Shown in pieces: positions 985 to 27,600 of a stretch of 64,000 nucleotides of DNA (within the stretch, counting starts at the first letter, position 1; each line of letters begins with the position of its first letter). The position numbers and the translations under genes were made by a program. Source of the DNA: Clytia hemisphaerica (lineage: Eukaryota; Cnidaria; Hydrozoa; Leptothecata; Clytiidae); the NCBI GenBank assembly GCA_902728285.1, contig CACVBU010000598.1:400203-464202 (forward strand). Direction: 5' to 3'. The notes under the pieces were generated by a model that made no database searches, was not told where the DNA came from, and saw only the letters and a list, made by a program, of their open reading frames with translations.

Positions 985-1268
985 GGATTTACATTTGGAA
1001 TTTCAAAAAATTCTTCTCGGTAGACAGACAAATGAAATCAGGGAAAAACATGTTTACTTTTCCCTGGGCAAGCAAAAAATGAACCGAACTCTGGTTCACA
1101 GAATTTTTCTCAAATCCCGTTCCAAAAAACATTTGATATTTCGGGGAATTTCGCAATCAAATGCTGCACTACTTGCAAACTTTGCAGTATTACTTTTTGC
1201 AGAGGAAACTATGTATAATCTTTTTAACTGTATTGAAAATATGTGTGCTGATTTAGGATGCCAACTAG
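985..1268 (+). CDS. STOX N-terminal exon (proposed)
   Basis: The frame encodes a basic, hydrophobic segment with LIFRGI and VLLFAEE. Its order resembles the N-terminal part of vertebrate STOX1, where LAFQGWL is followed by VLL. The frame closes with TAG at 1271, but a phase-1 donor lies just before it, and joining to 2535 keeps the frame. The acceptor ACGTAAG|G at 983-984 is a guess. The similarity is weak and rests on memory of the family. Confidence 0.5.
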
Positions 1269-4200
1269 GTTAGATTTTCTGATTGCTAAATGCATCGAGT
1301 TCAGTTGTTTAACTGGTCTTTCCATTCCGGTAGTGGAATAATCTTGGGTACTTGACAAAAACTGGAGTCTACTGTAAGAATTTCTCTAGAATGGAATAGT
1401 TTAAGCTTAGCCTAGCCAAAATATTGTGGTCAATGGAGAATGTCAGCGTCTAGAATGAACGGAGTCCAGTTGATTAGTTTTAATTACACCCAGTATCTAT
1501 TATTTCCTTTGATAATTACGGCTCTGCGGTAGATGACAACATAATGCATTGCTTCTTGCCGGCATTTTATATTTTGTTCAATGGAATTTTTCTTGCTTTT
1601 GACTGATTAGTTGTACTCTGTTTATATGAATGAACTAGTAATTACATTTCAATTATGATATTTCTCCCTTACAATAATTTTGAGTTGTTCTTAAGTATAC
1701 CGATAAATTTTCTTTTTGCTACTTTACTCAGATTAATTATGGAGATTTCATATCAGAAGCCAAAAGTTTTTTCGGATATTTTCACAAATTAGTGTTGTTT
1801 TTTTATTTCGCGTAGATTTAATTTTTTGAACCAGCAAAAAAAATTTATCATATAGTATTGGCCCTGGCCCAGTTTATTTTATTTACGTTGAAAATCCGAT
1901 TTTGGATATTTCATGTGGATTTGATTTCGCGAGTCAGCGCTTTCACGAGATTTGTTCTGTTCGTGAAAGCGTGCGAAATTAAATATGATTGAAGTGGACT
2001 TTTTCCTTGGACTTTTTCCTTGGACTTTATATAAACCGAAACTGTAAATCCTTCAATAGCTTTAACATCCCTGTCTGATTGATCGGTTTGATAAATTTTC
2101 CAGTAGTGGTGATTCTATATTTTACAGTGATGGTATAGAATTCAACAGCGTTTATTTTATGGTGATTTCGCGATCGTTGGTCACCAGCCCTCTTCCGAAT
2201 GTAATTGATTTGCTTTAACGCGGTGGGAAGCGCGCTAATGTTAAATTTATTTTAATGAAAGCGGTCTTTTGTATAAGAAGTTTGTTTTCGTTCCGCTAAG
2301 AGGGTAATTTTTGAACCAAGGAGACGACTGGATTAACATCTATAAGACACTATCAAATATTTGTTTATTTCATAATGAGGTGAAAAAAACTCAAAAAGTG
2401 ATACTTATTATGTAGAGACAATTTGATTTTGATGTCAAAACAATGTTTTAAAAACGCAGGGGAAAATGTTTTCTATCATAAAAAATTAGCTGAAGAAAAA
2501 ACGGTACAGTTCATTTTTCGTTGTTCAATTTTAGGAATTATTCGTGATTGCGTCGTCGAGATGATCCCTCAATCGCCCTTCATGTCGTTAACCACCGCCT
2601 TGTTCGAAGCCGTCGCCGATCTCAACCATCAAAACATATTTCCAACCAAAGACATCCTTCACGAATATCTACGTAAACATTACCCTGAGATTAAGACTCC
2701 CGATACGAAGATCATACATGAATGCTTAGGGAGACTGATCAAGAATCGAAGGTTATATCATAACGGGCGTGGTTACTTTATCTTGTTTAATGAGAATGTT
2801 CTCAATGAAGTTATCTCATTGAAATCAAGTTTAAAACCTTTAACAAACGACACCACAAGCCTTGAACCTTCCATTATCGGGTTTAAAATGATGGACTCGC
2901 GTACTTCAAGCTCTGGACAAACTGACGGCCATACTGACCTTCCAACTGATTTAGATCATCGCTCACAAGGAGGAGACGTTTATCAAAACATTCAACGACA
3001 TCAAAGTGTTGATACTTTGACAGAAGTCACAGCACTAGCTGATGGCGTGGCTAATATATCTGAATTATACACGCCCAAATTACACAGGACCTCATTTGGA
3101 GGGAAATTGTTTCGCAAAAACAACAATAAAGCAGAAAAAGGAGCGATCGAAAAAACACATAAAAACCACGCGAAGATGTTTTCGTGTAGCACTGCAACTG
3201 ATAGTATTATTCTCTCTAATGATCTAATCAATACGCCCTCGCGTGTTCCCATTGTTCAGGGAACAGAAACAATGACCATTCAAAACAAAGACGTTCTTGA
3301 CAGTGCAACCATGAGCGACGTCACAGACGTTCAGAGTCCGTCAATGTCTGGTCGTCGTCGCAAAGTCAAACGAAGCAAAAGTTTCGGTGGCAAAAATCGT
3401 CGTGAACCACGAACTTCCTCAAATAAGGAGGTTTCGTTTGCGTTGATCGGCTCACCGAGAGATAGCAACGGTTCAAACGACGACGAATATCCAAAACGTT
3501 TTCAAAGAAGCCACTCTTTCGGTGTGGGTTACCATAGAGATAAATACCAACGACCCTCGTTTTCTGAACGGCCCACTATCGCACGTGCAGAAAATATTAA
3601 ACTTTCAACGACTTCGAATAATACATGTAGTTCCAATGAAAATACTTTCGACCACACTTTCGTGACGGAACTAGATGAGACGTACGACGACATAGAACCG
3701 TCTTTTGTTGACGATAATATACCGGTGTTCGATGATGGACCCGAACTCTCTCATAGACCGGATATGTTGCCCGTTGTTGATACATCGACTTTCGAAACGT
3801 TAGAGAATTATAAAGACCTTGGAAGTGCGTTGAGTTTACCACGCATAAATGATAAAGGGATCAATTTTAACATGGTAGATTTGCTATCACCGACAAAGGA
3901 GGAATGTTTAGCGGAAGAATTGAAACAAGCTGGAGAGGTGGATATAGATTCTTTGGAAAAAGAGACGAGACTTTTGAGTCCTCGATCACGCAAGAAACAC
4001 GGAACGCCTTACGAAAGTCAGTACATTACAGAAGCTGTCGATCAAAGTGAAGAGATATGTCAAGCTCTTGAGGACAGCAAAAGGGATAAGAATTCGAACT
4101 ACCTTTCTGATAGAAGTTCAACAACACCGACAGGTAGCAAAAGCAGTAAATCTACCAAAGGTGTCAAAATGAGGAATCGATCCAAATCAAGCGAAGATGA

Positions 4201-4282
4201 ACGTAAACGAAATCAAAAGGAGCGAAATTCGTTATTATTTGAAGAGAAACGACCCTCACTCAAAGTGATGGGGATGGTATAA
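985..4282 (+). CDS. Storkhead-box (STOX/knockout-like) winged-helix protein, 5' end incomplete
   Basis: Two coding exons are proposed: 985-1268 and 2535-4282. The intron splits a Gly codon (phase 1), with donor CTAG|GTTAGA and acceptor TTTTAG|GA. The second exon opens with the Storkhead winged-helix domain (about 2541-2795), recognised by the pattern ending in YHNGRGYFIL, which matches the YxTGEGYFIV end of animal STOX1/2. Family knowledge: STOX proteins are nuclear and cytoplasmic winged-helix regulators. After the domain comes a long Ser/Thr-rich disordered tail with three R-x-S-F-G type motifs; the first is followed by KLFRK, resembling the conserved FGxxLF segment of vertebrate STOX. The stop is at 4280-4282. 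No in-frame ATG precedes the first exon's conserved part, so an upstream exon is required. An ATG at 2423 reads into the second exon, but its first codons look intronic. Confidence 0.75.
1269..2534 (+). other. Intron of the STOX gene
   Basis: A 1266-bp intron with GT and AG ends. Nothing coding is seen inside. A short tandem duplication of GGACTTTTTCCTT occurs near 1998-2025. Confidence 0.5.
2535..4282 (+). CDS. STOX main exon: winged helix and disordered tail
   Basis: This exon contributes about 581 residues. The winged helix occupies roughly its first 85 codons. R-x-S-F-G motifs lie near 3082-3114, 3361-3399 and 3501-3528; their Arg at -3 suits basophilic kinases or 14-3-3 binding, which is inferred from motif shape only. 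The C-terminus is Lys/Arg-rich and ends in Val, as in vertebrate STOX1 and STOX2. Confidence 0.8.
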
Positions 4283-5540
4283 TTTATTCTAATTTATGAC
4301 AAAACAATTTATTTATTTTCTGGGATAACTATAATTTTAGCAGGCAATTTAGTTTTGTATATATTTAAAGCGAAAAATTAGAAGTTAAATCTAATCTTCA
4401 CATTAAGGAATTCATCACTTTATTCTCCATGGTTTTGGTGGAATACCTGAAGATCACATTATCAAGAACATTTCGGCAGAATAGTAAACTCGTTAAAACA
4501 ATGAATAACCTTTAACCCGTTCTCTCCTGTGCTTAATTTTGAGCAAGGGGGTTGGTACTCTTGTAGAAAATGCATGAAATGGGGTGTCAATATTAAGTAA
4601 TTTTGGGTGATTTTCCCAAAAAACCCTAGGAAAATGAAGGTTTTGGCACTTTTTCAGAAAGATTTCATAAAATTCGGGGAGGATGGTTATTATAAAATGT
4701 CATATTAGTGAGATCTGTTAGCACATAAAAACGTAAGAATACTTACGTTTATTACGTTTTATAACCAGATTTAGTGTTTTATACATGAATCCATGTCAAA
4801 ATTTGAAGTTCCATCTGATGCTTGGGTCTAAACAACATAGGAAGGCTTAAAACATCCAAAAAAATTAGTTGGTTTGTACACTGTGCTCCTGAAGGGAGAA
4901 CGCTGCGTTGATTTGCCTTGTAAAGCTCGAAATCTAAGTTTTAGTATTCTGTAGGATTTAAAGCTTTTAATTCAATTTGAACATCGGAATCGGAAAAAGC
5001 AATGAATTTTTATATGAATTCATGTATAAAACATGAAATTTGGTCAATTTGTACTAAAATTACGAGGTTTTTAAGTTTTGCCTGGAAAGGCTTATGATGA
5101 CGTCATCAAAAAACTTTCAACCTCCATAACTTTTGACAGGAAGATTTTCAAGGCATGTTTTATACCTCAATTTTTATCAGCATTTCATGCTCTTTCCGCT
5201 GGAACCATCAGATTTTGAATATTTTCAAAAAAATAATTTTTTGACCAGCCACCTGATGACGTCATCTGGCAGGTGTCCAGGTGGCAAAATTTGGTGTTAT
5301 TGTTAAAAATTAAGTTTTAGACCCTCTAAGGATCATCTATGCCAAATTTCATGCTTTAATCACCATCTGAAGTATTTTTGTGCTAACATATAGAGACTCT
5401 GGATTAAGACAATTGATATGCAGGCTTTGTCCTATATCAAAAACTATTTTAGGGGATGCGTGCAGCCTAGCCGTCTCGAAGGACAAATGATTTTGTAGCA
5501 TGGTGGATTTTTGGTGGAAGTCATGGTGGAAGTTTGAAAA
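4283..5540. other. Intergenic region, noncoding repeat-like sequence
   Basis: No gene is seen. The stretch 4510-5450 has low-complexity AT-rich text with TGACGTCA-type motifs and two related segments around ATGAATTCATG, suggesting a decayed repeat. I cannot define its ends. Confidence 0.35.
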
Positions 5541-5544
5541 TTTC

Positions 5545-5715
5545 CGTTGTCACAGGAAATAAGTACTCCCCGGAAAAAGTACTCCCCAGTACTTATTTCC
5601 CTTATTACTCGCCGGTACATATTTCCTAGGAAATAATTACTCCCGGGAGTATATTTTTCCTAGGAAATTTATACCACCTACAGGAAAAAAGTACTCCCCT
5701 TAGGTACTTTGCTTG
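5545..5715. repeat. Dispersed repeat with AGTACTCCCC blocks
   Basis: Several copies of AGTACTCCCC and TTTCCTAGGAAA alternate here. A second copy of the block, starting GTGTCACAGG, is at 47305-47375, where it abuts a LINE fragment. It is a dispersed minisatellite-like repeat of unknown type. Confidence 0.5.
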
Positions 5716-7189
5716 AAAGGGGCTTTTCCAAAAAGAATTTGAATAAGATAAGAACACATATTTCTAAATTCTTCGCCGGCTGCTTCTGGTATTTGGACTA
5801 TCAACTAGTGCTTGTCTTTGATGTATAACTTTGATTTTACAAAAATATTTCAAGATTTCGATAATGTTAAGTCCAAACTGAAAATCATCATCTTAAGTCA
5901 CAGATGTATCTGCATTTTCTGAAAGACATTAGGTGAAGAAAGTTTCCTATATCCCATTTTCATAACTTATTTTCAAAACCCAAGGAGCTAGAGTGAGTTA
6001 TATGTGCAATTTTAATCTAGTGCTGTAATATTTCCTACAGACGCAAATATGTTATTTTTAATCTGTCTTAAACCATCAAAAGCAGACTAACTTTTAAGAA
6101 TAAACATCATTCTTTCAAAGTTAACAAAATTCGTCTAATTCTGAATAATCTAAAGGTCAGGATCCTCATTTTGATAACGGCCTACGTTTTCGGGGCCTCC
6201 TCCGTTTCGGGAGCTATATACTGTAGGGTCTTACAATTAATTACAATTTTGGAAAATTGTTAACTGTTTGGGAAAATGAAGAAAAACTCCTAAAAAGATT
6301 CAAAAAATGGCAAAAATTTGAACTTAGGACTTCAAGGATCCAAAAGTACAAAAATGGTCCAATTAGGCTCAGAATATAGCCTGGAAGTTGATAATGGCTA
6401 CCCAAATTGAAATATTCAATTACATTTAACAGATAAACCAAAAGCGACTTTCTCGCCCCAACTTCCAAAATTCTTGATATTTTTTGACGCAGATTGTATA
6501 TAGCTGTAAGCAGGAGGCTTCAAACAAAGTACCTCTGTACCAAGAAGGAACTTTCTAGCAAAAAAGGGTAAAAAGTTGAAGCATTCGTTGAAAAACTGAA
6601 AGCAAAACAAAGTTTAGTCCTGTTCACCGTGATTTACTTTTAGCCTACTTCTAGTAAAAACCAAAAAAATATTTTCAGTTGAATTGAACGACATTGTTAT
6701 GGTTTGATATAAATCGCAAAAAAATATGAAATAGATTATTTAAACAAAAAATTACAGATTTATTCAGTGTCTATGCTACATATTAAAAAAAAAATTCCTT
6801 CAATTTTACAGTTAACGACAATTTTCGGTAAGTAATTGGACACTTAAGTATGGTTCCTTAGTGATATCTTTAGACCCAAGTATTATTGCTTCTACAGAAC
6901 ACCCTCGTATCCTAACCTTTAGGATCCCCTCCCCACTTGGGAAAAAAACTCGAAAAGCTAACGAATGAAGAGCTGTCAGGCATTAAGAATAGATTTTAGA
7001 TATTTTTTCTCACCATGATGATTGCTTAAGTAGTTTTGTTATACGGGGATGCAGCGATTTGAGTGATCGAATAATAAATTACTGTATGAATTATATCGAG
7101 ACCAACATCGTATGAGCAATTAATTTTAGAGAAAATAAATGTGTTTGTGTAATATGGTGACAATACCTCTGCAACAAACAATGACTACT
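5716..7189. other. Intergenic region, no gene seen
   Basis: AT-rich, without recognisable coding or RNA features. Short open frames on the minus strand near 6241-6610 have no family resemblance. Confidence 0.4.
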
Positions 7190-7193
7190 TTAA

Positions 7194-7547
7194 TGGGATA
7201 AACTTTCGCGGGGATTAAATTTCGCGGTTGAGCCTATCTGCGAAATTCAAAAATTTCGCGGGCTTAATTTCGCGTGTGGCACTATTGGGTGGCAATATTT
7301 TCACGATTTTGTGACTTCTACTGTCAAATCATGCATATTGGTTGTTGAAATACACATTATTTGCGCCTTTCTGATGCAAGTAACCATTCAGATAGTATTT
7401 ATTTGACATATTTTGAGTTTTGTTCAGAAATATTTCGCGGATGAGGCCCTTCCAAATTTCCAATGGGACTTAATTTCGCGGATTTTCGCGGATGACACCC
7501 AAATCCGCGAAATCCGCGAAGTTTAATCCCCGCGAAAGTTTATCCCA
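7194..7547 (+). mobile_element. TTAA-flanked MITE, CGCG subtype (copy 1)
   Basis: The element starts TGGGATAAACTTTCGCGG, ends with the inverted complement, and is bounded by TTAA at 7190-7193 and 7548-7551. It carries many CGCGAAA/TTTCGCG motifs near both ends. It is the same subfamily as 61572-61917, inserted in the opposite orientation. A TTAA target is typical of piggyBac-like transposases. There is no coding capacity. Confidence 0.8.
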
Positions 7548-7610
7548 TTAAAATATAATTACCGACAACAAAAATTAAGACCGTGTGAGACAGGGGTGTG
7601 AATATAATAG

Positions 7611-7858
7611 TCATCCTGCACTAGCCTCGTTTTGATTTCGTGTTTTGGATTTCTTCTCGCGGTCCAATCGTTTTTCTTCGAGTTCTGTTTTTATTTTGCT
7701 CACTTTCTCGTTTAACAAAGATTCATATTCTTCTTTACTGGTAGCAGAAGTATACATATCTTCTTCAACTTTTTGGGCGTATAAAACTAGATTTTCCATT
7801 TGTTTGTTTTTTGTTGTACTTGGCTCGTCGACTCCTTGTGGTACAATGGCAGCAAATA
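7611..7858 (-). pseudogene. Second KIX copy (KIX-A), helices 2 and 3 exon, frameshifted
   Basis: The frame from about 7853 down to the stop at 7611 is open. It is very close to CBP in the loop and helix 2 ([22 protein letters not shown]), but helix 3 is remodelled: where CBP has [11 protein letters not shown] it reads YESLLNEKVSK. The base count after the acceptor is one more than in CBP or KIX-B (TATTTGCTGCC against TGTTGCTGCG and TATTTCTGCC), so splicing from 8090 puts it out of frame and soon hits TGA. A downstream AG (CCAAG|T) would restore frame but drops about 13 residues. A recent pseudogene, alternative splicing or a sequence error are all possible. Confidence 0.6.
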
Positions 7859-10800
7859 CTGAAATAAATAAGTAGATGGAATGTAATGAAAATGAATACC
7901 ATGCAAAAAATTAAATTAACAAAGATTTTCAAATTGAAACAAACTGGCAGTTGAACAATGAAATTATAAGAATATTGACAACATTCTTCTTCAACCTTCT
8001 TTTCAAGTGTGAGGATCGGTCGAGATCGTAAACAACTAATCAAGCTGGTCTCACCTGGGAAATCGCAAAGCCTTAACAAAAATACTTACAGTTCATCAAT
8101 GTGTTCTCTTCTTTGTGTTTCAGTAATCGATTCATGCCAATCTTGACTTGGTTTGCAAAGTGGAAGTGATCTTCAAAAGTAAAACTAAGTAAGAACTTCT
8201 CAGTGGGGATGGTTTTGGAGTGCATTTCTTTTCCTATTCTAAACAAAAACTAAGTCAAATTCCCAATGGAGCTGAAATTATGGGGTAATTTTCCCACCGG
8301 GAACAGAATTTTGGCCAAATTTTTCAGTGGGGCGGGGGTCCCACAGGGTCTGTGACACAGGGCTGTCTTTAAGCTGCAGGGCTGTCTTTAAAATTCTAGA
8401 AGTTTGCAGGAGAATCGATTTTTTCAGTCAATTTGGATGTACTTATGATGAAACTTAAGTTTTATAAAAATTCAAAAGAAAAAAATGGTGACACTTCTTC
8501 AACGTTGCTTTAAATGAGAGTGAGAATTACCCTTGATCTATATTTTCAGCTTCTTGATTTGTTGCTTCTACTTCCTTCGTCTCTTGCTCTTCACTTGGAT
8601 TCCCTCCAGCACATTCTTCTTCTTTACGTTTCTTCACCGTCGTTTCATTTTCTTCTTCCAATTTAGATGCCCTGAAAGAGTCAACGGGTTGAAGCCTTTT
8701 CAAGCAGTCGCTTCTCTTGAGCTGTTACGTTATCAGAAGCTATCACCGTCGTATTTCTTAAAGATTTTATGTTGAAGGAAATCTTGATGAAAGCTTGAAA
8801 AATGTCACTCTGACCTTTTTAGAATCATTTTAAGAAGAATTCGTCTGTAAGTCTAAAAATGGTCACTTAGTAATTTGAATCTGATTACTTGACCATGTTT
8901 TTACTTTGAGATATCCTTCAGAAGAAATGCGTATCGTGTATGAAATTCTCGTCCGAGAGTTACCTTAAATTTGGGGTAACCAAAATTTGCATAAATTTAC
9001 ATAATTTCGTCACATCCAATCAAAGAATGAAAAAAATGAAGTCATTGTGCTGTTGTTTTCATAATTATCAATTTTTGCGGAACGTGCGTTTGTGATTCTT
9101 ATAGATAAACATGCATTTTTGAGCCCAAATTTGCCCAAAAATATGTATTTTTGAAAATCGGGCTCCGTCACATTCGAGGGTTTATAGTTATGCATCTTTG
9201 TGAAAAAAATCATAAAGAATGAAAGCGCCAACCTCGAGAAAAGGTAATACCTAGAAGTAATTGATAATGTGCTGATAAAAAAATATCTTATTTGGCCAAA
9301 AACACGCCAAGTAGCCAAAATTTCATTTCTAAACACACACATTCTTCAAAAGTAAGCCCTCGTGAGCAAAAAAAAACATCTATCTCATAAAAGAATTGAG
9401 TAATTTGACTAAGAACATTGATGTATACTTATTGATAGTGATTCTTATAGATAAACATGCGTTTTGTGAGCCAAAAAAAATGTCTTGCAAAAATATGCTT
9501 GAGCCATCTTTTACCTTTGATGGTACCCTACTTTCATGCAAAAAATTAGAAAAAATTAATGATCCAATTTTTCACAAAGTCTAAAAAACCCGTTTTTTAG
9601 CCGTTTTTTGGCCCAAATTTGGCCCAAAATTTTTTTCTTTCGAAAATCGGGCTCCGTCACATTCGAGGGTTTATAGTTATGCATCTTTGTGCAAAAAATC
9701 AAAAAAAACTAATGAGCCAATCTCGAGAAAAGCTGGTAACGAACGAACGAACGAACGAACGAACGAACGAACAACGGTTAATTCATAGGACCTCCACCGG
9801 GGTAGGTCCAAAAAAGAAAAGACGGAGGTAAGTTGGGGCAGAAATATTTTAGACGATACGCATCCCCTATATATTAGACTTACTCTTCAGTAGGTTCCAA
9901 ATTCATCAATTCATTACATAAAGTAAGTTTAAAAAAGTCACTGAAATTGAAATTTCAACGTCACCAGTCTGTTCTACCTTAAGGGAACTAATTTTTGCGG
10001 GAACTAAATTTTGCGGTTTTTGCGGATTTAGACCCAAACCGTAAAATTAAGTTCCCGCAAAATTTTTCAAAAACACAAAGGTCGAATAATTCACAGTACG
10101 GCTCTAAATTTCTTTCAAGTGAGAAATCCGCAAAATTAAGTTCCCGCAAATATTAAATATTAAATCTTGAACTGCGAACCGCAAAAATTAGTTCCCGCAA
10201 AAAATAGTTCCCTTAAGGTATATTGTTCGTTTTATACCAAGGAAAGTCTTTAGACCAATCCAACAAGGTAACTTAAGGGAAGAAATTTTCGCGGAATTTA
10301 ATTTCGCGAATGAGCCAATTTCAAAAGTTTCACGGAATTTAATTTCGCGATTGAGAAATTTCAAAAGAATTTTTTTTACAGAGAAAATGTTTTTCATATT
10401 TTTCATTGATTTCAAGACATATTTCAGTCACATTAACAAACTTTAACAACAAAATAATAACATCAAAGATGAATGTTTCTATGATAAGTCATGATTAAAC
10501 TTCATCGCCGTCTTCCTCCAAAGAAATCGAATTTCGCGATTTAGCCATTTTGGTGTGTTTCGCGGAAATTAATTTCGCGAAAATTAATTTCGCGAGTTAC
10601 GCCCAAATTGGCGAAATTACTCGCGAAAATTTTTTCCCTTAAGGTAAGTTTAAATTATACATACTGTATTATTTCGAATAAACGTCCATCTTTTAAACAC
10701 CCCCTCGAATAAACGCCCGTCCTTTAAGGAAAATGTTTGATATTTTCGTATTATATGAAGAAAAACATAGATTTACAACTATGATTGTATTCTTTTTTTT

Positions 10801-12569
10801 ATTCGAACTGATTTTGACGAAGTTCCACATCCCTAAATTGACATATTTGTACTGAAATAATAATGAAAAGGCAAAATGGTTTCAATTAACGTTACTAAAG
10901 TGACCTTGGTTCATTCGAATACGGTATTCAAAGTTAAAAAGGCTATTTTTGAGAATTTTTTTATGTCAACACTTTTCATTCCGATAGGAGGTTAAGAATT
11001 CACTCACCTTTGTCCTTCTGCGTCTCTTTTCATCGCTTCTTTCACGTATCGCTTTCTTTCATTGCGCTTATCCTCCAATTCTGTTTGAATATTGTGGACT
11101 TTATCTGCTAACAAGTGAAAATAGTCTTCTTTACTGGCGGCAGAACTATAAAGTTCTTCTTCAGCTTTTTGAACGTTTGAAATAAGGTTTTTCCACTTGT
11201 TTGTTTTTGTTGTACCTGGCTCGTTGATTCCTTGTGGCACAATGGCAGAAATACTGAAAAAAGAATGGACAGTTCTTGTGGGGTTCTTGTGCTTATCCTT
11301 ACTTTTTGATATCCTCAACATCAACGAACGGTTTCAAGATACCTTCCAACAAACACCAGTCATTGCGTATAGACGCAACAAAAACTTGAAAGATCTACTT
11401 GGACAAACATCAATATCCGATAACAAAGTCACAAGAAAACAACAAAAACTGAAAGGAAAGTGCCAGCCTTGCTTAACAAGGATAGGAAACCTTTGCTGTA
11501 AACAAATAATGTCAACCTCAACCTTCACCAGCCAACAAACCAAAAGGACATACCAGATCTTCCAAAACGTTAACTGCAAAAGCACTCGTATCATCTACCT
11601 CCTGGAATGCAACTAATGTCACATCAAATATATTGGAAAAAGCGAGACCCAATTCAATCAAAGACTCAATAACCAAAGAAGTAATGCATACAGACCACGA
11701 CAAGAGACAATCCCAGCGTGTAAACATTTCCACCAAACCAACCACGATTTCAACAGAGACGCAAAGTTCACCATCATCGAGCAGATCAATGAGACAGATA
11801 TAGAAAGAATGAAAATGATAATACTACAGAGAGAAAACTTCTGGATCAAAGAACTGAGAACCCTCACACCTCATGATTGAACCAAGAACTCAATCTTCTC
11901 CAACCGAGCGCCTAAGTCTGATTTACACGTTCATTTTAGACCAAATTCAACTTATCAGATGGCCCCATTTACACCAACCCATTTTCAAGCCGAAATCGCC
12001 TAAAATGACATATTTGTCCAATTTGACGTCAAATAATTTTGTATAGAAACACTTTTTTTTATATAGAAATATCATTCCCTTGAGAACGGACTGAGTCCGA
12101 AACATGTCGGGAAAAATCAAAATATAATAGCCGCATTCTTTTTCACCGTCCAACATATCCTTACTTTTTGATTAAGAGCAGTGACCCTGGGGTAAAGGGT
12201 CGGGGTTGCAACCAGTCAAGGTGACCGACGGGGACCAATTGTGTTTTTCAAGGAAACAGAAATGCACTGTAAGGGTGTGTTTTACGAAAATTGCAAATGA
12301 ATTTTGAAATAGTTTGTAATTTTGTGCTCATTAGAAAGGTAGTCATGAGTCATTAAAGTCATGAATATAAAATATTTTCGAGTACAGAAAATTTAAAACT
12401 GTAAAAAGATTTTCAAAAAGATTTGTTATCTGAAATTTATCACAAAAACCAACAAACGAGCCCATTTTCTTCCTTTTTCTTGTTAAACTAGTATACTTAC
12501 AGTCGATCAACTAGATGTTTACGCTGGCTTTGATTGATTCTGCCTCTCCAATCATCATTTGAAATGTTG
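7611..12569 (-). CDS. Tandem double-KIX-domain gene (CBP-derived), 5' end not found
   Basis: Six exons are proposed on the minus strand: 12501-12569, 11008-11253, 9884-9940, 8531-8671, 8090-8170 and 7611-7858. All internal junctions are phase 2 with good GT-AG sites. The first two encode a KIX domain closely matching the KIX of the CBP gene upstream. The third and fourth encode an acidic, lysine-rich linker. The last two encode a second KIX. The KIX intron sits at the same codon and phase as in CBP, so the exons were copied as a pair, twice. No TAZ, bromodomain or acetyltransferase exon is seen. KIX binds activator helices such as phospho-CREB, Myb and MLL, so a decoy or adaptor role is possible (inference). 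The last exon has one extra T after its acceptor that shifts the frame. The first exon and promoter were not found. Confidence 0.6.
8090..8170 (-). CDS. Second KIX copy (KIX-A), helix 1 exon
   Basis: The exon encodes QDWHESITETQRREHIDEL, aligned to CBP KIX helix 1 (GWH at the start, last Leu codon split CT|GTAAGT). It is more diverged than KIX-B. The acceptor TGAAG|A gives the phase required by the preceding linker exon. Confidence 0.65.
8531..8671 (-). CDS. Linker exon 2 of the double-KIX gene (proposed)
   Basis: A 141-nt symmetric phase-2 exon (acceptor TTTCAG|G, donor GG|GTAATT). It encodes a Glu/Lys-rich segment with the basic cluster VKKRK, a possible nuclear-localisation signal. It is disordered by composition. 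It could be omitted or joined by exon skipping without changing frame. Confidence 0.5.
9085..9814 (-). repeat. GGACCTACC-end modular repeat, copy near 9 kb
   Basis: Imperfect modules contain CGGGCTCCGTCACATT and GATTCTTATAGATAAACATG (twice, near 9085 and 9437). They end with a (GAAC)n microsatellite at 9741-9772 and the terminus GGTAGGTCCAAAAAA. The orientation is opposite to the copy at 41514-42421. Noncoding. Confidence 0.6.
9884..9940 (-). CDS. Linker exon 1 of the double-KIX gene (proposed)
   Basis: A 57-nt symmetric phase-2 exon with acceptor TTTCAG|T and donor GA|GTAAGT. It encodes a short hydrophobic-acidic segment ending LMNLEPTE. There is no family match; the call rests on good splice sites and conserved phase only. 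Confidence 0.45.
9983..10212 (+). mobile_element. TTAA-flanked MITE, TTTGCGG subtype
   Basis: Terminal inverted repeat GGGAACTAATTTTTGCGG, TTAA at 9979-9982 and 10213-10216. The internal motifs are all of the TTTGCGG/CCGCAAA type and the interior repeats GTTCCCGCAAA. It lies in the intron between the first KIX copy and the linker exon 9884-9940. Confidence 0.75.
10277..10638 (+). mobile_element. TTAA-flanked MITE, TTTTCGCGG subtype
   Basis: Starts GGGAAGAAATTTTCGCGG and ends AAAATTTTTTCCC, bounded by TTAA at 10273-10276 and 10639-10642. It is only 60 bp from the previous element. All motifs are the CGCGAAATTA type. Confidence 0.75.
11008..11253 (-). CDS. First KIX copy (KIX-B), helices 2 and 3 exon
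   Basis: The exon reads in frame from the previous one and includes the identical block [12 protein letters not shown] of helix 3, then a basic tail (KRNERKRYVKEAMKR). Compared with CBP, helix 2 is diverged and the tyrosine equivalent to human CBP Y658 is His. The exon ends at the donor AAAG|GTGAGT, one base before an in-frame TGA, so splicing onward is expected. Confidence 0.75.
11311..12155 (+). mobile_element. Penelope-like element fragment, GIY-YIG endonuclease end
   Basis: The plus-strand frame from 11311 encodes the C-terminal part typical of Penelope-like elements: PVIAYRRNKNLKDLL, a Cys-bearing IIYLLECN, then CHIKYIGKS (GIY-YIG nuclease) and a tail ACKHFHQTNHDF followed by FWIKELRTLTPHD. 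An in-frame TAA replaces a residue of the CxxC pair near 11614 and another stop follows PHD. It is flanked by the exact 17-bp direct repeat TATCCTTACTTTTTGAT (11294-11310 and 12156-12172), a target-site duplication, so this is a 5'-truncated insertion. It sits within the intron between the two exons of the first KIX copy. Confidence 0.8.
12501..12569 (-). CDS. First KIX copy (KIX-B), helix 1 exon
   Basis: The exon encodes DDW followed by a helix whose stretch [10 protein letters not shown] is identical to the CBP KIX helix 1 at 24552-24641. The donor CT|GTAAGT interrupts the same Leu codon as in CBP. Two overlapping acceptors occur (start 12569 or 12571); 12569 gives the same phase as CBP. 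Confidence 0.7.
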
Positions 12570-14117
12570 CTCTAAAATACAAAACGAAAGCAATCAAGTG
12601 TACACAAATTATAAAAATTCATAGTGATTTGAACTCCTCGAAGGTAAAATCAGCAGAATTGTTTATGACATACACGAGCAATTTAGAAAATAAGAATTAT
12701 GGAGGAGTGTACTTTCCATTCAAGTTTCAATAAATAGGATCTCCTCCAAAGATCACATTTTACAAACTACTCGTCTCAGACGATTTTTCCGTCTCTTCAG
12801 TATAAATGAAACTAAAGTCTATCCAGATATAATTGGCAGTGGAAACAAGAATGCCTGTAACTTTTGATAGTCAAATATAATTTAGAAATTTTTTTTTGCT
12901 TGTTTTAGAGAATCAAAAGCGCTATATTTGAATGTATTTTTGGTTGAAAAATTCGCGATTTTTAGCGGTTGAATTTGCGATGGCAAAAATTGGGCTTTTT
13001 TTCTACTTATGCTACCAGTAAAAATGAGTCATCTTAACGTACAGCGTTAAGATGGCTCAAACTGAACTCGTCCTTTGTATTATTAATTAGAATCTAAATC
13101 AACAAAACAATACGTCACCATCAGGTACCATTTATAGACTTTTACTATTTAAAGACTTTTTCTTAGACTTTTCAAATTTCGATGTAAATCTTCAGCTCCT
13201 TCTACAAATTCCGTTAAAAAATAGGTCACGAAGAAACCTTTTCATGGTCAAATTCTGTGAAACAAGAGCACGTGTCATATACTTTTAGGGTACTTTTGGT
13301 GCCGAAATTCTATTGTAATGTCACGTGACCTCGGTAGGATCTCTACCGAAATACGGCTCACTTTACAGCCAAAGCACGCTATCTAGCCATTCGGGCATTA
13401 TAAATCTGTTGGGGTCACCTGTCATAACCGTGCATTTTACAGACCGGCCAAAATTGCCCTCTTTGCCTAAATTAGCCCTAGGTTACTGTATCTTAGGATT
13501 GGAAAATACTATTGGCTTGGAATTATGACAAGGATATTGCACTTGGCAATCCTGAGAAAAAAGGCAGTCTCGTGGGTGGTTAATATTAGCGATTTTAACA
13601 CTAAAAATATAAAAGAATGGCGTTAGATGTTAGGGCGGTAGATTCTCTATACCAGTTTTGTGTAAATTTAAAACGCATTAAATGATAATTCCTAATTTAT
13701 GAGGATTTTACTTAAATAAACTGTACTTGAATAAAAGAGATTTTATTCTTGGTCAAAGCAGATCAAAGTTTTCCGGTTTAGATGGTTTGTAAAATTCCAA
13801 CCAAGTATTTGCAAACTACCTAAGATTTCAATATCTACCTTTGGTGAAAATTTTAAGTCAACAGCTCTAGTAGGTCCTGACCGGTGTGACCGGTCTGAAA
13901 AGTACCAAATATGACACCAATCTTTTTCAGTGACAGTTTTTTGCAAAATAGCCATTAAAAACAAATGTACCAATCAGGCAGGTGGCTGAACAAATCGTTG
14001 TTTGCAAATCATCTCTAATTATCCATACTTTTACCAATGGTCGAAATTTCAAGTTCATAGCTCTTGCCAATCTTGAGATTTTAAGCCCCCCCCTCCAGAA
14101 TGCTTCCCCTAGTAAAA
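12570..14117. other. Region upstream of the double-KIX gene; no exon recognised
   Basis: The missing 5' exon and promoter of the double-KIX gene should be here or beyond. I found no minus-strand start codon followed by a convincing phase-2 donor. A short perfect inverted repeat (CATCTTAACG, 5-nt loop) lies near 13032-13056. Otherwise AT-rich noncoding sequence. Confidence 0.4.
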
Positions 14118-14533
14118 ACAAGCTAGATGCTGAATGGACCTACCTGATGATGAAAGTTGGATAGCAATACGAGGAGAAAAAAACCAGTCAAAAAATGTAC
14201 CGTTTAGCTGTTCCGGCGATTTTTAGAAAGTTCCGGCTTCAAAAATCAGTTTTATTGACAATTGAACCATGCTTGATCGTGGACAATGCTATTAACAATG
14301 TTTTTGTGTGAAAAAACAACCAATTATAAGGAAAAAGTCCGATGAAAATCTGCAAAAACGGCGATTTCCGGCATTTCGGCATTTTCGGCCGGAAAAGAAT
14401 TTTTGTCAAAAATCGGACTCTGCCATGTTTTGGGCATTGCTAATACGCATAATAATACGTAACAGACGGACGGACGAACGGACGGACGGACATCGGTTAA
14501 TTTATAGGACCTCCAAGGTAGGTCCAAAAATGG
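14118..14533 (-). repeat. GGACCTACC-end modular repeat, short copy
   Basis: Left edge AGATGCTGAATGGACCTACC, right edge GGACCTCCAAGGTAGGTCC. It contains a GGAC/GAAC microsatellite (14463-14492) and modules with TTCCGGC and AAATCGGACTCTGCCATG. It is inverted relative to 41514-42421. Confidence 0.6.
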
Positions 14534-14850
14534 AAGGATTTTAAGCTTAAAATTTATTGAATTTGGCTAAATATTGACGGAAAAGTCTCTTTTACATTCT
14601 TCCACTTTGTACCACACGTTATTTTCTTCAGCCAGAATCATAAGCTTTGTTCGTTGCTTTTTAGCATTACTTAGTCAAAAAGGTTACATCCTAAAAAAGT
14701 CATCGTCCTCACTTTTTTGAAGTCGTCATCAAACTAGTATACCTCTATTTGCCTTAGTTTGGGCTTAGGGCTTAAAGTGTTAAAAAAATAAGAGCAGCAG
14801 AGCATCGGTAAATTTACTGGTTTTTATAAAAAAAGAGTACAGCTTAAATG

Positions 14851-15140
14851 GGGCCTGGAATTCCCGAGTTATTTTTTTCCGAGTTATTCTTTCGAATTAT
14901 TTTGCATGTGACGTCATAATTTCAGTTTTTATGAGGTCACCACAAAAGTGATAACTCGAGAAGTTAAAGACACGAAAAGAAACCAAGTTACAAAACACCA
15001 AATAACTCGGAAAGTTAAAAACTCAAAAACAACTCGAGTTATTATTTTTGTGATGACGTCATAATGACGTAACAAAACTGAAATTATGACGTCATATGTA
15101 AAATAACTCGGATAAAATTAACTCGGGAATTCCAGGCTCC
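14851..15140. mobile_element. Palindromic MITE with GGCCTGGAATTCCCGAGTTA ends
   Basis: Long inverted arms meet near the middle and contain repeated TGACGTCATAA and AACTCGAG motifs. The flanks AGCTTAAAT and AACTTAAAT match at 8 of 9 positions, consistent with an 8-9 bp target duplication (hAT or Mutator type). No coding capacity. Confidence 0.75.
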
Positions 15141-16831
15141 AACTTAAATTGTTGGGTTACCAGTCATTTTTCACCACACATCCATTCTTGCAAATCAAGC
15201 CATACATATTGATTCAATGCCATAAATGAGCAATGTTCAATCAACTGTTTTTGACATTGTTTCTTTTATTCAGTTTTCGTTATAAGTTATCTAAACGAGA
15301 CAAAGAAAAGATATAATATATGTAGTATACCATTTTTCAAACATAAAGACAGAAATCACTTTATGGAAATCTAAATCTCTAGAGCATATTTTGGTGGATG
15401 ACAGGCTACAGAGAAAGACTAGAGGTTTTATATATGATACACAGTAGAATTTCAAAGTGTCAGATAAAATTCTAAGTAAAAAGGACACAGACAATAAACA
15501 GATTGACAGGGGGTAAAAACGAATAAAAACGCGTATTTCTGTAGTAAAAACTAAAATTTTACGATATCTTTAGTTGATAATTGTAGCAAGCATCGATATT
15601 ATTCACAAAATATCCCAATAAAATTCGGACATGATTCGTAAAAAATAAAAAGTACCAAAACGCAAAAAGAATTCCTTTAAGTACAAGATATGATCAAAAA
15701 TTAAATTTAATTTATATTGTAGAGATAACTAAAAAAAAAGCAATCTAAAAGAAGCTTTTTTCCAAAATATTCTTACGATTTCTTACGGACTTAATGAATA
15801 TTATTACTGACTTCACACAAAATCGACAGCGACAATGATGAAATTTCGACGACATTTTAAATATTATTGATTTTATCTGTACAGATATAAAAAATAACAG
15901 TAACATGACTGGAAAAGGGGTTAAGGACCGTTGGAAAGTTACCTCCAAATTGTATTTCAATTTTCCGTGTTAAAAATTAATGGCCTGAATAAATTTCTCT
16001 TTTTACAAAAAATGAAGTTTTATTAATTTAAAGTTGAAGAAAAAAATGTTGACAAAAAAATAATTTTACTGATAAGCAAGATGTAATAAACAATTATGAT
16101 GAAAACAAAAAAAAAGTGATCTTAAAAACTAGGCTAAAATTTCTTGGTCGTTCTCAATACAAAATCTATGGTTAATAATGCTTCCATTGTAGTAGTAAAT
16201 ATAATATTATTAATACTAAAGACTTCTTTTTCCATAACAGTATATAATACAATTTCTATTCGTGGTTCAAAAGTAATTTCTCTCCACGAAAAGTTACGGA
16301 GTAATTTGAAAACTTTCCTCCTGGAGGACTATAATAAAAGAGGCAATTCTACGACCAAACTATGTCTTGACCTCTGAGATACTCTTTTCATAATAATAAC
16401 AATAATACAATATCTTTTAAAAACAAACCCTTTACACAAATGATGGAGGATTCGAAAATATAAAAATGGCAATTTGTTTGACGGTCTTGAAAGGGAAGTG
16501 TAATAATGAGCCTTACGTGAATGCGAAATCTTCATTAGGCCATTCTAGAGACTACCAACAAAACACAATGTGGGCGGACAAGCGTGTGTGATAGGCACTA
16601 GCTAGTCTCGTTTGAAAAAATAACACAACTAGGCAGGTATCCCTTCCCTTCAGAATCATAAAAAATCGATATAAGTCAGGCAGCTCTTACGCGAATAAAT
16701 AGTTCCAAAAAAGTATAAATAATTTTATTTCGTTTGAGCTATTGTGTAAGTAAAAGCGGCCAATGACATGATCTGTTTTCGTTTTTGGCGATAGAAGATA
16801 GCAAAACTAAAGAATACAGAGAAGCGATATA
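15141..16831 (-). other. Probable 3' UTR and downstream flank of the CBP gene
   Basis: AT-rich sequence directly after the CBP stop codon. The minus-strand signal AATAAA occurs about 100 nt beyond the stop and again at several places further down (for example near 16020 and 15264). I cannot tell which is used. No other gene is seen. Confidence 0.4.
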
Positions 16832-21600: not shown

Positions 21601-24600
21601 AATTCTAAGTTATTTGTTTAACTGAAAGATGCTTAATAACAAGAGGAAGCAAAATGAAACCATACCTTACTGCCACAACAGTAACCAAGTTTCTTCATCA
21701 CTGGATCAATGTCAGCTTCAAATATATCATAAAGCTAAAAAAAAGCCAATGTTTTTAGGTCGTTTATGTCACCTTAAGTATTAGTATTTCATGGGGCAAA
21801 GACATAATATAATCACACAAAAATTTTCATTAAAGTGCAGATTAAAGGTCTTACTTTTGAACAGTATTTATAAACTTTCGTTGTCTTCTTGTTGTATAAC
21901 CAAGCATTTTCAAACATTAACCTCATGTCATCGCAAAACTAAGAAGATTGAAAATTGAAAGGTTAGAAACTCATAATTGCAAATTGATTACAAGTTCAAT
22001 ATTGATGAATCAAATATTAGATCAAAAATAACATCACAGTTAAAAACACTATTTTTCGTCCACTAACGGAATGAACAAATTCAGTATACTTACACCCCAG
22101 GGATCCTTGTAGTCACCATTGTCCAATTTACTTTTGATTGTTGACAAATCCATTGGATTCTTGACAATGTGAAAGTAATCCTAATAAAGTGAGGTAAAGG
22201 AATTTGGTAAGGGCCTATAATAAATAATCAATTTTTTTGAGATTCAAAGACTAAGGAATAGAATAAAATGCTTTTTGAAAAACGTTTATACTTACTGGAA
22301 TTCCTAGTTGGTCTGGGTTGACGGGAGTTAAGAAAGGTCCAGATTCTGGATCTATTTTGTGAACTTTATCAAAGACTGGCATCAAACTTTCAATCAATTC
22401 TTCCTTTGTCCATACTAATGTGAGAATTTCAAAAAATGGTTTAAAACATGCAAAAGTAGATTGTTTTGGATAAAAATACTTAAAATGAATGAGTCAGCAA
22501 GGAAAGTAAATATAGCTTTTAACTTACTTTTATAGACTTTTGGCTTGACTTCAGTTTTGACAGTGGCAGGGGATCCTGATGCTTCAGTCTTTACGACAGC
22601 ACTTGAAGAAGAGACAGTGGCTGATGTTGTTGCAGTAGTTGTTGATGTAGAAGTGCTTTCTGATATTTCCATTTTCACTTCAGTTTTGATGTCCGGTTTA
22701 ACATCTTCTGTTGAAGTTTGCATGGGAGATGGTGGTTCCGTTTTCACGTTTGAATTACAAGATAATAGGGATGTTTCAGTTTTAGGAGTTTGCAAGCCTA
22801 AAGCTGAAGAAGTGAGAGTTGAAGGAGTAGACGATGGTTGCGTGGAAATTTGGTCAGTACTACTAGTTGGAATACACGAGCTCATTACTTGATCTTCCAC
22901 TTTGACAGGGTTAGAGAGACTTGTCGGTAAGTTTTGAGAAGGTAAATTGTTCATAGAGTTTGGTTGTTGATTCATTTGAAAGTTGTTCACAGGCTGTTGG
23001 TTTGGTTGTGATTGAAATTGGTTGTTCTGATTTTGAGACAGTTGTTGTTGTTGCTGCTGAGGTAAATTTTGGTTTTGATTATGTTGTTGCAACTGCTGGT
23101 TCATCTGCATGGTTTGGCCAGAATTTGCAAACATTGCAGGGTTGTTCATTCTATTGATCATATTTGGTCGATGTTGTTGCATTTGATTTGGCATTTGCAT
23201 GCCAGGTAGTTTTTGATTCATCATGCCAGGGAATCTAGGTTGTTGATTGGGTATACCTCTTTGCATTGCCATATTTGCTGAATTGAGCTGAAAAAAGAAT
23301 ATGAAAAATCAGCTACAAGTAAAATATAGAATTAAAAATATGAGATGTTTTAAAATACCTTTCAAAATAGCTGTAATTGAATGAAAAAGACACCTGGGAA
23401 AGATTCTTTTTCATAATTCTAGTCTGGGCCCTAATCTTTCTTAAAAGTAGTATGAGAATAGGGAGAAAATTAGTTGTACAGTTTATGAAAATTGGACTAC
23501 GGAAATACTTGAAAGATAAAAAATTGACAAAAAAGAAATTGTGAACAAATGGGTTTCTGTCTTTCATAAATTAGATTCTAGGTAAAATTTGTTTTAAGCT
23601 CCTACATTGCTGATTATGTAGCATTTCCATGTGAAAATAGGAATATTTTGTCTGTAGAAGTTACCTGTAACTGTTGCGCCATCCTTGCTTTCGTTTCATT
23701 GATCATTGCGTTTTGCATGTTTGGAAAGTGATTGGTATTGTTTGAAAGAGAGGTGTTTGTTGAAAGAGAACTGCTGACAGCATTACTGTTACTTGTGTTG
23801 TTCATAAATTCTGACATAGATGTTGCTAGGCTATTAACTTTATTTTGTTGTTGTTGTAGATTATTGAATTGATTCATTATTCCTACAGATGTTGGGTTTT
23901 GTTGTTGTTGAATGTTATTGCCTGCCATGTTGAGACCTCCTTGAGCAAGTGGGTTAGTGTTATTGTTTTGTTTTTGCCTTCTTGCTCGTTCTTGACGCTT
24001 CTCTTCTAGTTCTTTTTGAATTTTGTATATCTTTTCTGCTAACAAGTGAAAATAGTCTTCTTTACTGGCAGCAGAAGTATACATATCTTCTTCAACCTTT
24101 CTGGCGTATAAAACTAGATTTTCCATTTGTTTGTTTTTCGTTGTACTTGGGTCATTAACTCCTTGTGGAATAATCGCAGCAACACTGAAGTGAAAAGATT
24201 TAAAACATTTTAATATCAATGAAAGAAGAAAATATGTCAAAAGAAGTCCAATTTTGATATCTTAAGGGAAGAAATTTTTGCAGGAACAAATTCTGACAAA
24301 TTTTCATAGAATTCAATTTTGCGTTTTTTTGACAAATCCACTAAAATTAAATACCAGGAAACACTAATATTCTCAGGATTTTTAAAAAGTCACCTCTATT
24401 ATTGGTCTTTTGAAGGGCAAAATAGGCCATTTTGTTAGCAAAAAACTTCTGAATTTTTGACAAAATTAAACTTCACAAAAATTTCGTCTTTTAAGGCAAG
24501 TCAAAATCTAATTCCATTAAACATAAAGATAAGTGAAACTAAAAAACTTACAGTCTATCAACCAAATGTTTACGCTGGCTTTCCGTGACAGATTTATGCC

Positions 24601-27600
24601 AACCTTCCTTGTCCTTGGTCACAGGTTGATTTGGAGTATTGCTATAATAAAAGATTTTTTTGGTAATCACGAATTTGCTCATGTACCAAAATAAATTATT
24701 TCATGACAATTAAAGCTAACAAAACGATGTACAAATTAAGCTTGGCTGAAGAACTCACTTTGTAGTATTTGGCTGGTTATTCATCATTGGCTGTTGAGCT
24801 TGCTGGGGTTGTTGTTGTTGTTCATTATTACCAGCAATTTTCTTCAAATCGTTTTGATTTGGAACCCTTCTGTTTGTTGGATGTGGTCCATTTTTCAATG
24901 GTAAGCAAACTGGACAGTCAGTTCTTGTACAAAACTTCCAATGCGTGATGATTTGTCGAGATGATGCGCAATGAGCAACTAAAAAGAAAAGCAATTTTAT
25001 GATTATTTTGTTGCATTCTTGTACTATATGAATATGATCTGATCTGCTCTAGCATTTTTAAATACATATCATATTCACGAAAATGTGCAAAAAAAGTTCC
25101 TGAAGGTAATTTTTGTTGAAACTCTTTGGTTTCTTTGCTTTTTAGGTACAATTTAAGTATTATCTCCTACCTTGACAAGATTTTCCAGCTTTACAAACAG
25201 TCATGTGGTTTAATACGCCTTTCATTGTTCTACAATGTGGCAGATCACACGGTTTGTAGTCTCCATTTGCTTGTTGCTCTCTTCGTTGACATTTGTGTGC
25301 ATGAAGTAGTAAAACCAACTGCTGTTGTATGAGTCTCTTTTTCTCTGGGTCTGTAGTGTTTGGGTGCTGATTGGGGTTGTTTTGATTGTTTGAATTCTGA
25401 GTTGGGATATTGTTCTAAAAAAAGAGCAATATTCAATTTTTGATTTGATTTCCAAACTTTCTATGGTACTTTAAAGATGATTAATATATAAATATCCTTT
25501 TACACTCAGATCATGTGCTTACCATAGATGGGTCATTTCCAGGAATGTTAGGAAGTTGGTTTTGGTTATTCAAATTTGCATCCAAGACATTTTGATTAGG
25601 TGGTGGTCGATTCATTTGATTTCCAATTTGGTTGTTTGCAATATTTGACTGTTGAAAACCAGAATTGGCATTCATAATATTGTTTCCAATTTGATTGTTC
25701 ATATTATTAATGTCAAAATTTCCACGTATTTGTCCAGGCTGGTGATAAAAAAAAAAATTTATAAAGATTATTACGCAAAGTAAAAGGGTTCTTTGGACAA
25801 ATATATTATCACTAAAGCAGTGTTGCCAAAAAAGCTGATGATTAATTATATAATTAAAAATCTAACTAAAGGAAAAGCAAATACAAAGTTTTCAAAACGT
25901 GAGGCATACTTTGTTGTTTTATAAAAAAATCTATTTTTTGGCCTTCAAAACACACAAAGGTCACATTAATGCTCTGCGCCTTTGATAAAAAGATGAAAAT
26001 TGTGCACAAACCATTCTATTCATGTTCATCATTCCTTCTTGGGAGGGATCCATCATCTGATTGATCATGTTTGGTGGAAAATTCATTGGAAAATTTCCAA
26101 TGTTTTTAGGTCCATTCATACGATATTGTTGCATGTTGTACATGCGGTTATTAATCATCATTCCAATGTTACCTCCAGCCGGATTAGCATTAAAATTTTG
26201 TCCTCTATTTGCCATCATATTTTGAACATTTTGACCAATGGCATTCATAGGTGTGCTTATATTCATTTGACCATTAAACATGGAATTGGATGGCATCATC
26301 GCATTTGAGTTATTATTCATATTGTTCATTGGGTTGGAGAAAATGTTGTTGTTTGAGTTTGGCATTGAAGAAGATAGTGACTGGTTACTGAAATTTCCTC
26401 CAGTGTAAGCTATTGATGATGGTAAATTGCCACTGTAGGCCATAGTAGAGGCTGAAGACATTGGATTGAAATTATTTGGCATTGAAGATATTATATTGTT
26501 ACTAAATTGCGTATTATTTATAGAACTACTATTGTTATTCAGGAAATTTGAATTTGAGTTTGCGATACTAGCACTGACAGGTAGCTGTGGATTTCTGATT
26601 TGATTTACCATTGGAGTTGGAGGAGTGGGCATTCCAGCTGTACTTATAGGTCCATTATTGGGAGGCAAATTTTGTTGTAGATTCCCCCCAACATTTGGTC
26701 TTGGACTCCTCATCCCGAGACTTTTGGCATTGGCATTGACTTGATCATTTCCAGCATTTACAGCACCGCCCTTGCTGAGAGATGCGGAAAGTGATGTTGG
26801 TCCATTTTGTTGAATTGAGTTATCAGTTCCAGAATTAAAGGGTTCCAGCCCTGCCATTAAATCTCCATTTGAATTGATGTCATTCTCTGAGCCACTATTT
26901 GCCACCATAACAGAATCAGGAATATCATCCAGAATATCCAGTGAAAATCCTAAAAGTAAAGAATTTTCAAATGTAATTCTTTATTTCTACAGGTTTTTCT
27001 TTCACCCAAAACTTAATGTTATATCATTTTCCTAAGAAAGTTTTTTTTATACCCCAAAAAAGAATAATTAAGTAAACCAAACTAAAAGGAGCCCAGTGGC
27101 AAGTAATTCTAAACCATTAAAATTATTTTTCAATTAAGACTGTTTAAACCAAGATCTGGGTTTTAAAAGAGATATTAGCAAAACTAAAACTATAAACATT
27201 TTTAAGAGCATTTCAGCTGTCGAATGTTTTGCTTACTTGATATTACCTTGTACAATTACATTGAATCAAGGAAATAGCTAATTTAAAACCCAATTTAAAA
27301 AAAAATATATTATGTGAAAAATTATAAATATTTAGAATATTTTATAGCCAATTTCATCCATTTGAAATTACTCCAGGAAAATTGATATTCGCTAAATAAG
27401 TTCTAAACTAAGTACTACTTTATGCAATTTATTTGCAAAAAAAATTCTCCAGTTCGGTCCAGTTTATAAATTTTTCAAACAGACAGAAACAAAAAAGTTT
27501 ATAAGGAATTGTTTTTGGTCCTGTTTGGTCTACAGCTCTCAGAGCTCTAATAGAATTTCATTTTCAAAGGCTTTTAAAACCGAATGAAACTAATTCATAG

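Follow-up and report, generated by a model that had tools for sequence, protein, structure and literature searches.

The stretch of DNA examined here is a 64,000-nucleotide (nt) segment of the hydrozoan Clytia hemisphaerica genome (assembly GCA_902728285.1, contig CACVBU010000598.1, positions 400,203 to 464,202), and the whole segment is referred to as the window. It contains the CBP gene and, further downstream, two copies of the pair of exons that encode the KIX domain of CBP. The CBP gene is located on the minus strand, its frames of at least 120 codons are open in the window, and the last open frame ends at 16832. Its KIX domain is divided between the exons at 24552-24641 and 23665-24184. 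Both copies, called U1 (11.0-12.6 kb) and U2 (7.6-8.2 kb), are located beyond the end of CBP. Sequence matching and the Pfam profile confirmed the arrangement proposed in the initial annotation of the window, namely that the two-exon KIX unit occurs twice more downstream of CBP, on the minus strand, with the intron placed at the CBP codon, and the GT and AG of this intron are kept in all three units. A second contig of the assembly, C226, carries the same trio of CBP, U1 and U2 and was compared with the window contig, C417. The KIX exons have the following coordinates in the window:

24552..24641, minus strand: CBP KIX exon 1 (parent), identified by sequence match and frame test
23665..24184, minus strand: CBP KIX exon 2 (parent), identified by sequence match, Pfam and frame test
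12501..12569, minus strand: U1 exon 1, KIX helix 1, with an AG acceptor in the CBP phase and open on both contigs
11004..11253, minus strand: U1 exon 2, KIX helices 2-3, ending at a donor (exon end 11008) or at the stop codon TGA at 11004-11006
8090..8170, minus strand: U2 exon 1, KIX helix 1, in a CBP-like phase, with a 4-nt deletion on C226 at window positions 8134-8137
7611..7858, minus strand: U2 exon 2, KIX helices 2-3, with a stop codon TGA at 7611-7613 and an extra T in the TTT run at 7854-7856

The identity of the copies was examined using the Pfam KIX profile (PF02172, curated cut-off 27 bits). U1 gave 61.8 bits (expectation value (E) 7.9e-17) and U2 gave 60.2 bits (E 2.5e-16), while the KIX domain of CBP itself gave 92.2 bits; the U2 peptide used for scoring was obtained by joining the exons across a frameshift with one base omitted. 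U2 also matched the solved CBP KIX domain (PDB 1sb0 and others) with an E of 2e-19. The KIX domain of MED15 was ruled out as the source, as these scores far exceed those of the Med15_N profile (E 0.0048 for U1 and 0.11 for U2). A six-frame search of the assembly (417 Mb, 951 contigs) gave 8 KIX matches out of 9 candidates, 2 of them far below the cut-off and 6 above it, the latter corresponding to CBP, U1 and U2 on each of C417 and C226. Neither the window nor the next 10 kb downstream contained a further KIX match better than E 1.2. Elsewhere in the assembly a weak, sub-cut-off match at C141:195301-195519 (E 0.0099, 16.6 bits) is contained within a 259-codon open frame, and could from its sequence be a diverged KIX domain, for example of a Mediator subunit.

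Only the KIX exons appear to have been copied. Open pieces of at least 30 codons from window positions 16832-30000 were compared with window positions 1-16800 and with the initial 23.5 kb of the C226 stretch, and no histone acetyltransferase (HAT), TAZ, bromodomain or other CBP part was detected in the copies at E 0.01, a search that shorter exons and masked glutamine-rich parts could escape. One further match (E 0.005) came from a piece at 27753-27917 that may not be coding. The exon structure, the Pfam scores and the lack of any other detected CBP part together bear out the earlier proposal that U1 and U2 were derived by copying the CBP KIX exons. The DNA upstream of U1 and U2, where a shared 5' exon might lie, shares nothing beyond a dispersed repeat and a match of 18 nt (E 0.44).

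The region C226:85001-125000 aligns to approximately 2.1-28.7 kb of the window, with insertions between the aligned blocks. The three blocks containing CBP are 98.4-98.8% identical and the remaining ones 85-99.5% identical, and from this alignment C226 is predicted to be most likely the other haplotype. Comparison of nine CBP coding stretches (5,359 bases) between C226 and the window revealed five one-nt insertions and one 3-nt insertion. The one-nt insertions occur on C226 only (compared with window positions 17340-25283), are probably assembly noise and call for caution with gene calls made on C226.

The reading frames of both contigs were examined with the exon boundaries of CBP applied to all units. 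Over the tested stretch neither contig interrupts the frame of CBP or of U1, and U1 reads through to a TGA; a complete frame through KIX helices 1-3 is present in U1 on both contigs and in U2 on neither. In the window a single extra T immediately past the AG acceptor of U2 exon 2 puts U2 exons 1 and 2 out of frame, and on C226 the 4-nt deletion in U2 exon 1 removes a Trp-His pair from the KIX frame of helix 1. CBP and U1 show the C226 length at the extra-T site and the window length at the 4-nt site, so each lesion looks derived and restricted to a single contig, and because the lesions differ between the contigs neither need be old. U2 appears to be dying, its KIX frame having been lost on both contigs through different lesions. 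Over the 72 codons of U2 exon 2 the contigs show 5 replacement and 1 silent differences (6 counted, with one due to the extra T excluded). This ratio fits neutrality, so no claim of positive selection is made, and no sign of present constraint on U2 is apparent in the comparison. U1 shows no substitution between the contigs in exon 1 and a single one within the 250 bases of exon 2, too little variation for any verdict.

The in-frame TGA of U1 (11004-11006) overlaps a near-perfect donor, AAG/GTGAGT, that is present on both contigs. This TGA lies 66 nt past the sequence AAGCG, and that of U2 lies 63 nt past the corresponding AAACG. Each copy may once have ended at its TGA, a weak indication given that the TGAs are not superposed when the two tails are aligned freely.

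Divergence was estimated by the Nei-Gojobori method (NG86), with U2 represented by a composite of exon 1 from the window and exon 2 from C226. The nonsynonymous (dN) and synonymous (dS) values were 0.288 and 0.848 between CBP and U1, 0.223 and 0.922 between CBP and U2, and 0.406 and 0.697 between U1 and U2. Over 84 aligned residues U1 matched CBP at 50 and the composite U2 matched CBP at 61, with 45 matches between the two copies. A rough neutral model with 30, 45 and 60 substitutions gave a chance of no stop codon of 0.23, 0.14 and 0.09, and a chance per unit of neither a stop nor a frame-breaking indel of at least 2 nt of 0.008, 0.0009 and 0.0001. The indel rate was taken from 16 indels of at least 2 nt against 143 substitutions over 13,772 sites, with 25 one-nt indels excluded as possible noise, and the model is only a guide because it ignores gene conversion and the compensating indels of U1. 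The open frames, found despite a dS of 0.7-0.9, combined with this model support the view that the copies were long kept as coding sequence.

The identity between CBP and its copies is distributed as a mosaic. The longest runs of shared polymorphic columns were 15 for CBP and U2 (0 of 20,000 permutations), 10 for CBP and U1 (p 5e-5) and 3 for U1 and U2 (p 0.36). Among codons specifying the same residue in CBP and U2, identical and synonymous codons numbered 26 and 2 within codons 28-58 and 15 and 16 outside them (Fisher p 2e-4, with the interval chosen from the data). Gene conversion from CBP into the copies is the likely cause, with the tract in U1 less sure. The open frames and the CBP-like tracts argue for a past function of the copies, as judged from the sequences.

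The residues that are important for the KIX fold and for ligand binding are conserved to different extents. Trp591, Arg600 and Tyr640 are retained in both U1 and U2, the latter two forming a cation-pi pair (PMC3936767). U1 also retains Leu603, Leu607, Ile611, Leu628, Leu653 and Ile660, with Val in place of Ile657, Asn in place of Tyr631 and Trp-Lys in place of Met625-Glu626. The contacts for phospho-CREB are absent from both copies, Tyr658 being replaced by His in U1 and Ser in U2 and Lys662 by Thr in both; the neighbouring CBP keeps Tyr658 and Lys662. In the literature these two residues are tied to the binding of phosphorylated CREB and c-Myb (PMC3936767) and are described as partners of the phosphoserine (PMC4030872). 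The U1 KIX domain should fold, since it retains Trp591, Arg600 and Tyr640 along with most residues of the aliphatic core. The His at position 658 and the Thr at position 662 should prevent it from recognising phospho-CREB or c-Myb. The earlier suggestion that a product of this locus could compete with CBP for KIX-binding activators is accordingly not expected to hold for phospho-CREB, whose contacts are lost, but other ligands might still be bound.

We give about even credence to a reading in which the KIX exons of CBP were copied, doubled and long maintained as coding sequence, with U1 now intact, U2 dying, and a HAT-less product with a single KIX domain encoded by U1. The sequence shows that the KIX exon pair, without any other detected part of CBP, was copied downstream, and the copied pair would then have doubled to give U1 and U2, in that presumed order. 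Frame retention suggests that both copies were maintained as coding for most of their history, and the mosaic identity suggests that stretches of them were overwritten from CBP by gene conversion. U1 has no start codon of its own before the KIX domain. The CBP exon at 24759-24978, which precedes the KIX domain, joins U1 in frame, as expected from an inherited phase, and the first zinc finger lies, by eye, in the two CBP exons ahead of KIX. Because its acceptor is in the CBP phase and no convincing first exon of its own was found, U1 may be reached from the 5' exons of CBP, and the resulting protein would combine the first zinc finger with KIX but lack the HAT. If expressed, the likely product would be an acetyltransferase-free protein with the one KIX domain of U1, potentially serving as a HAT-less decoy or adapter towards other KIX ligands.

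Several observations weigh against this reading. The dN/dS ratios among the copies range from 0.24 to 0.58, well above what tight constraint would give, and open frames could also be maintained by conversion from CBP on its own. The synonymous test applied to U1 was not significant (p 0.08 for codons 53-65 and 0.7 for codons 8-16), and the single difference between the contigs in U1 exon 2 is a replacement. The alignment of U1 with CBP suggests small compensating indels at the start of U1 helix 2, and U1 may be a younger casualty. At the U1 acceptor the window has two AGs (tagag), the second of which preserves the frame while use of the first would shift it, and C226 has a single AG. The donor at the end of U1 speaks for onward splicing rather than for a terminal exon. 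No start exon for U1 (an ATG, an open frame and a donor leaving 2 nt) was found between the CBP stop and U1 on either contig at a donor score of at least 3.5 and a length of at least 20 nt, a threshold that proved too strict, as the KIX exon 1 donors of CBP, U1 and U2 score 3.1. With the limits lowered to 1.0 and 5 nt the window yielded 3 candidates and C226 yielded 4, and a single one, encoding five residues, was common to both; there is no convincing 5' exon for U1 in this limited search, which covered single start exons. C226 may also be a recent large duplication instead of the other haplotype. One-nt indels on C226 are weak evidence because this contig is noisier than the window, and its 4-nt deletions and a lost splice acceptor are better evidence.

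An alternative that we consider rather unlikely is that U1 and U2 are both unprocessed pseudogenes, drifting partial tandem duplicates that were never expressed or no longer are. The broken frame of U2 on both contigs, the excess of replacement differences in its exon 2 that would be expected without constraint, the small compensating indels of U1 and the absence of a convincing first exon for it are all consistent with this. It is harder to reconcile with U1 being open over both exons on both contigs, with the GT and AG kept at all three KIX introns, and with frame retention across a dS of 0.7-0.9, which the rough neutral model makes unlikely (0.008 to 0.0001 per unit).

The initial annotation had proposed instead a single spliced gene in which U1 is connected to U2 through two linker exons, encoding a tandem-KIX protein without acetyltransferase. 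The proposed linkers are as follows:

9884..9940, minus strand: linker A, with splice signals and phase that fit in the window and a 4-nt deletion on C226; doubtful as an exon
8531..8671, minus strand: linker B, with splice signals and phase that fit in the window; doubtful as an exon

The description of these linkers as in-phase exons with good splice sites is acceptable for the window, but both are damaged on C226, where linker B has lost its AG acceptor and carries further length changes of -1 and +3. In the window linkers A and B are the only segments at or above their own splice scores that chain in phase. Among 100 shuffled sequences 8 contained a single in-phase exon and 3 a two-exon chain, a weak comparison in that the linkers themselves supplied the thresholds. 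U1 can be joined to U2 exon 1 in three ways in the window, directly, through linker B or through both linkers, and each join is in frame as far as U2 exon 2 and stops 30 codons into it. No frame is open through both units on either contig, so one gene with two working KIX domains finds no support in the present assembly, and the six-exon fused gene as assembled was rejected on both contigs, with the frame stopping in the window and U2 exon 1 and the linkers damaged on C226. No complete tandem-KIX protein is predicted to be encoded on either contig.

A tandem gene could still be retained if the extra T were an assembly error or a null allele, with intact alleles segregating, and we consider this rather unlikely. 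In its favour the U1 donor is rare as well as shared by the contigs (2 of that strength were found on both strands of the 64 kb, that of U1 included, with 0.001 expected in 66 nt), the linkers chain in phase as no other segments do at their own thresholds, U1 joins U2 exon 1 in frame by all three routes, and the U2 lesions, differing between the contigs, need not be old. Against it stand the frame that stops within U2 exon 2 in the window, and on C226 the 4-nt deletions in U2 exon 1 and linker A and the missing acceptor of linker B. Linker B and U2 exon 2 together also differ between the contigs at 15 of 388 sites compared with 23 of 1803 in nearby noncoding DNA (Fisher p 0.002), the opposite of what constraint would give, although this grouping is post hoc, omits linker A (0 of 57) and U2 exon 1 (1 of 81), and could include a contribution from C226 noise. 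The nearly equal spacing between KIX and the in-frame TGA in U1 and U2 speaks weakly in the same direction, the two TGAs not being aligned. The fuller form of this idea, a young animal gene fed by conversion, with two CBP-derived KIX modules, no acetyltransferase, no phospho-CREB contacts and both intact and broken alleles, serving as a decoy or bridge for activators that bind KIX independently of those contacts, is distinctly improbable.

The possibility that U2 alone survives as a two-exon gene depends on the following start codon:

8223..8225, minus strand: ATG of an alternative two-exon U2 frame, open on both contigs, in which the window sequence of helix 1 is not read in the KIX frame

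This frame runs to the stop at 7611 and is open on both contigs because the indels between them here (2, 2, 4 and 1 nt) sum to 9 nt, but a total divisible by three would arise by chance in one case out of three anyway, the window frame reads helix 1 outside the KIX frame and the C226 frame is without the Trp-His of helix 1, making such a gene very improbable.

The surroundings of the copies contain several other features. A 147-residue open frame on the plus strand at 11173-11616, opposite to U1 exon 2 and extending into its intron, resembles by eye the end of a retroelement protein and gave no Pfam match at E 0.01. Short inverted repeats with arms of 'cgcgaaatt' or 'ccgcaaaa' were seen by eye near the copies at 9980-10650 and 7180-7560, and are likely to be small mobile elements. 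Beyond the KIX copies, on the opposite strand, a Storkhead-box winged-helix gene is located at 2402-4282 on the plus strand (Pfam Stork_head, E 1.6e-18).

When the reading of U1 as an intact, HAT-less single-KIX unit is compared with known systems, the nearest parallel is in Caenorhabditis elegans. In the published account (PMC10320766) cbp-2 and cbp-3 are shorter homologs of cbp-1, contained within one 160-kb stretch, likely to be partial gene duplications and without a HAT domain; CBP-2 comprises the first zinc finger and KIX. Both were once classed as pseudogenes, yet are expressed, and their knock-down affects promoters. The Clytia copies are likewise HAT-less partial duplicates of CBP, and the zinc finger and KIX product proposed for U1 would have the layout of CBP-2. 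The C. elegans duplicates combine one KIX copy with a zinc finger, whereas only the two KIX exons are detected here, twice, with CBP-like tracts and with one copy frame-broken on both contigs.

Proteins with multiple or stand-alone KIX domains are described mainly from plants, with tandem KIX domains in a rice and Arabidopsis study, up to six in Brassica oleracea and one or two in soybean (PMC3936767, PMC5668377, PMC10565003). The copies described here differ from these in deriving from an animal CBP gene and in having no complete tandem frame in the assembly. With respect to CBP/p300 KIX domains, the exon boundary and phase are those of the neighbouring CBP and Trp591, Arg600 and Tyr640 are kept, whereas Tyr658 and Lys662 are missing from both copies, Tyr631 is missing from U1, and no HAT, bromodomain or TAZ domain was detected. 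The MED15 KIX domain also lacks Tyr658 and Lys662, which is given as a possible reason for its having no significant binding to CREB and c-Myb (PMC3936767), and it resembles U1 and U2 in this respect.

The claim that a HAT-less tandem-KIX arrangement would be new was too strong, as HAT-less CBP duplicates (PMC10320766) and plant tandem KIX proteins (PMC3936767, PMC5668377) are already published. No tandem-KIX animal gene was seen among the open-licence papers listed, judged mostly by titles and the beginnings of abstracts. The locus is a further and different case of a HAT-less partial CBP duplicate, with no evidence of a tandem protein.

If both copies are dead, the locus still illustrates how a domain-sized piece of a conserved gene can be copied, partly overwritten by its parent and lost through different lesions on two contigs. 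If U1 is made, Clytia would have a natural HAT-less KIX protein beside the full CBP, comparable with cbp-2 of C. elegans, and one could then investigate whether competitors of CBP evolve within animals themselves.

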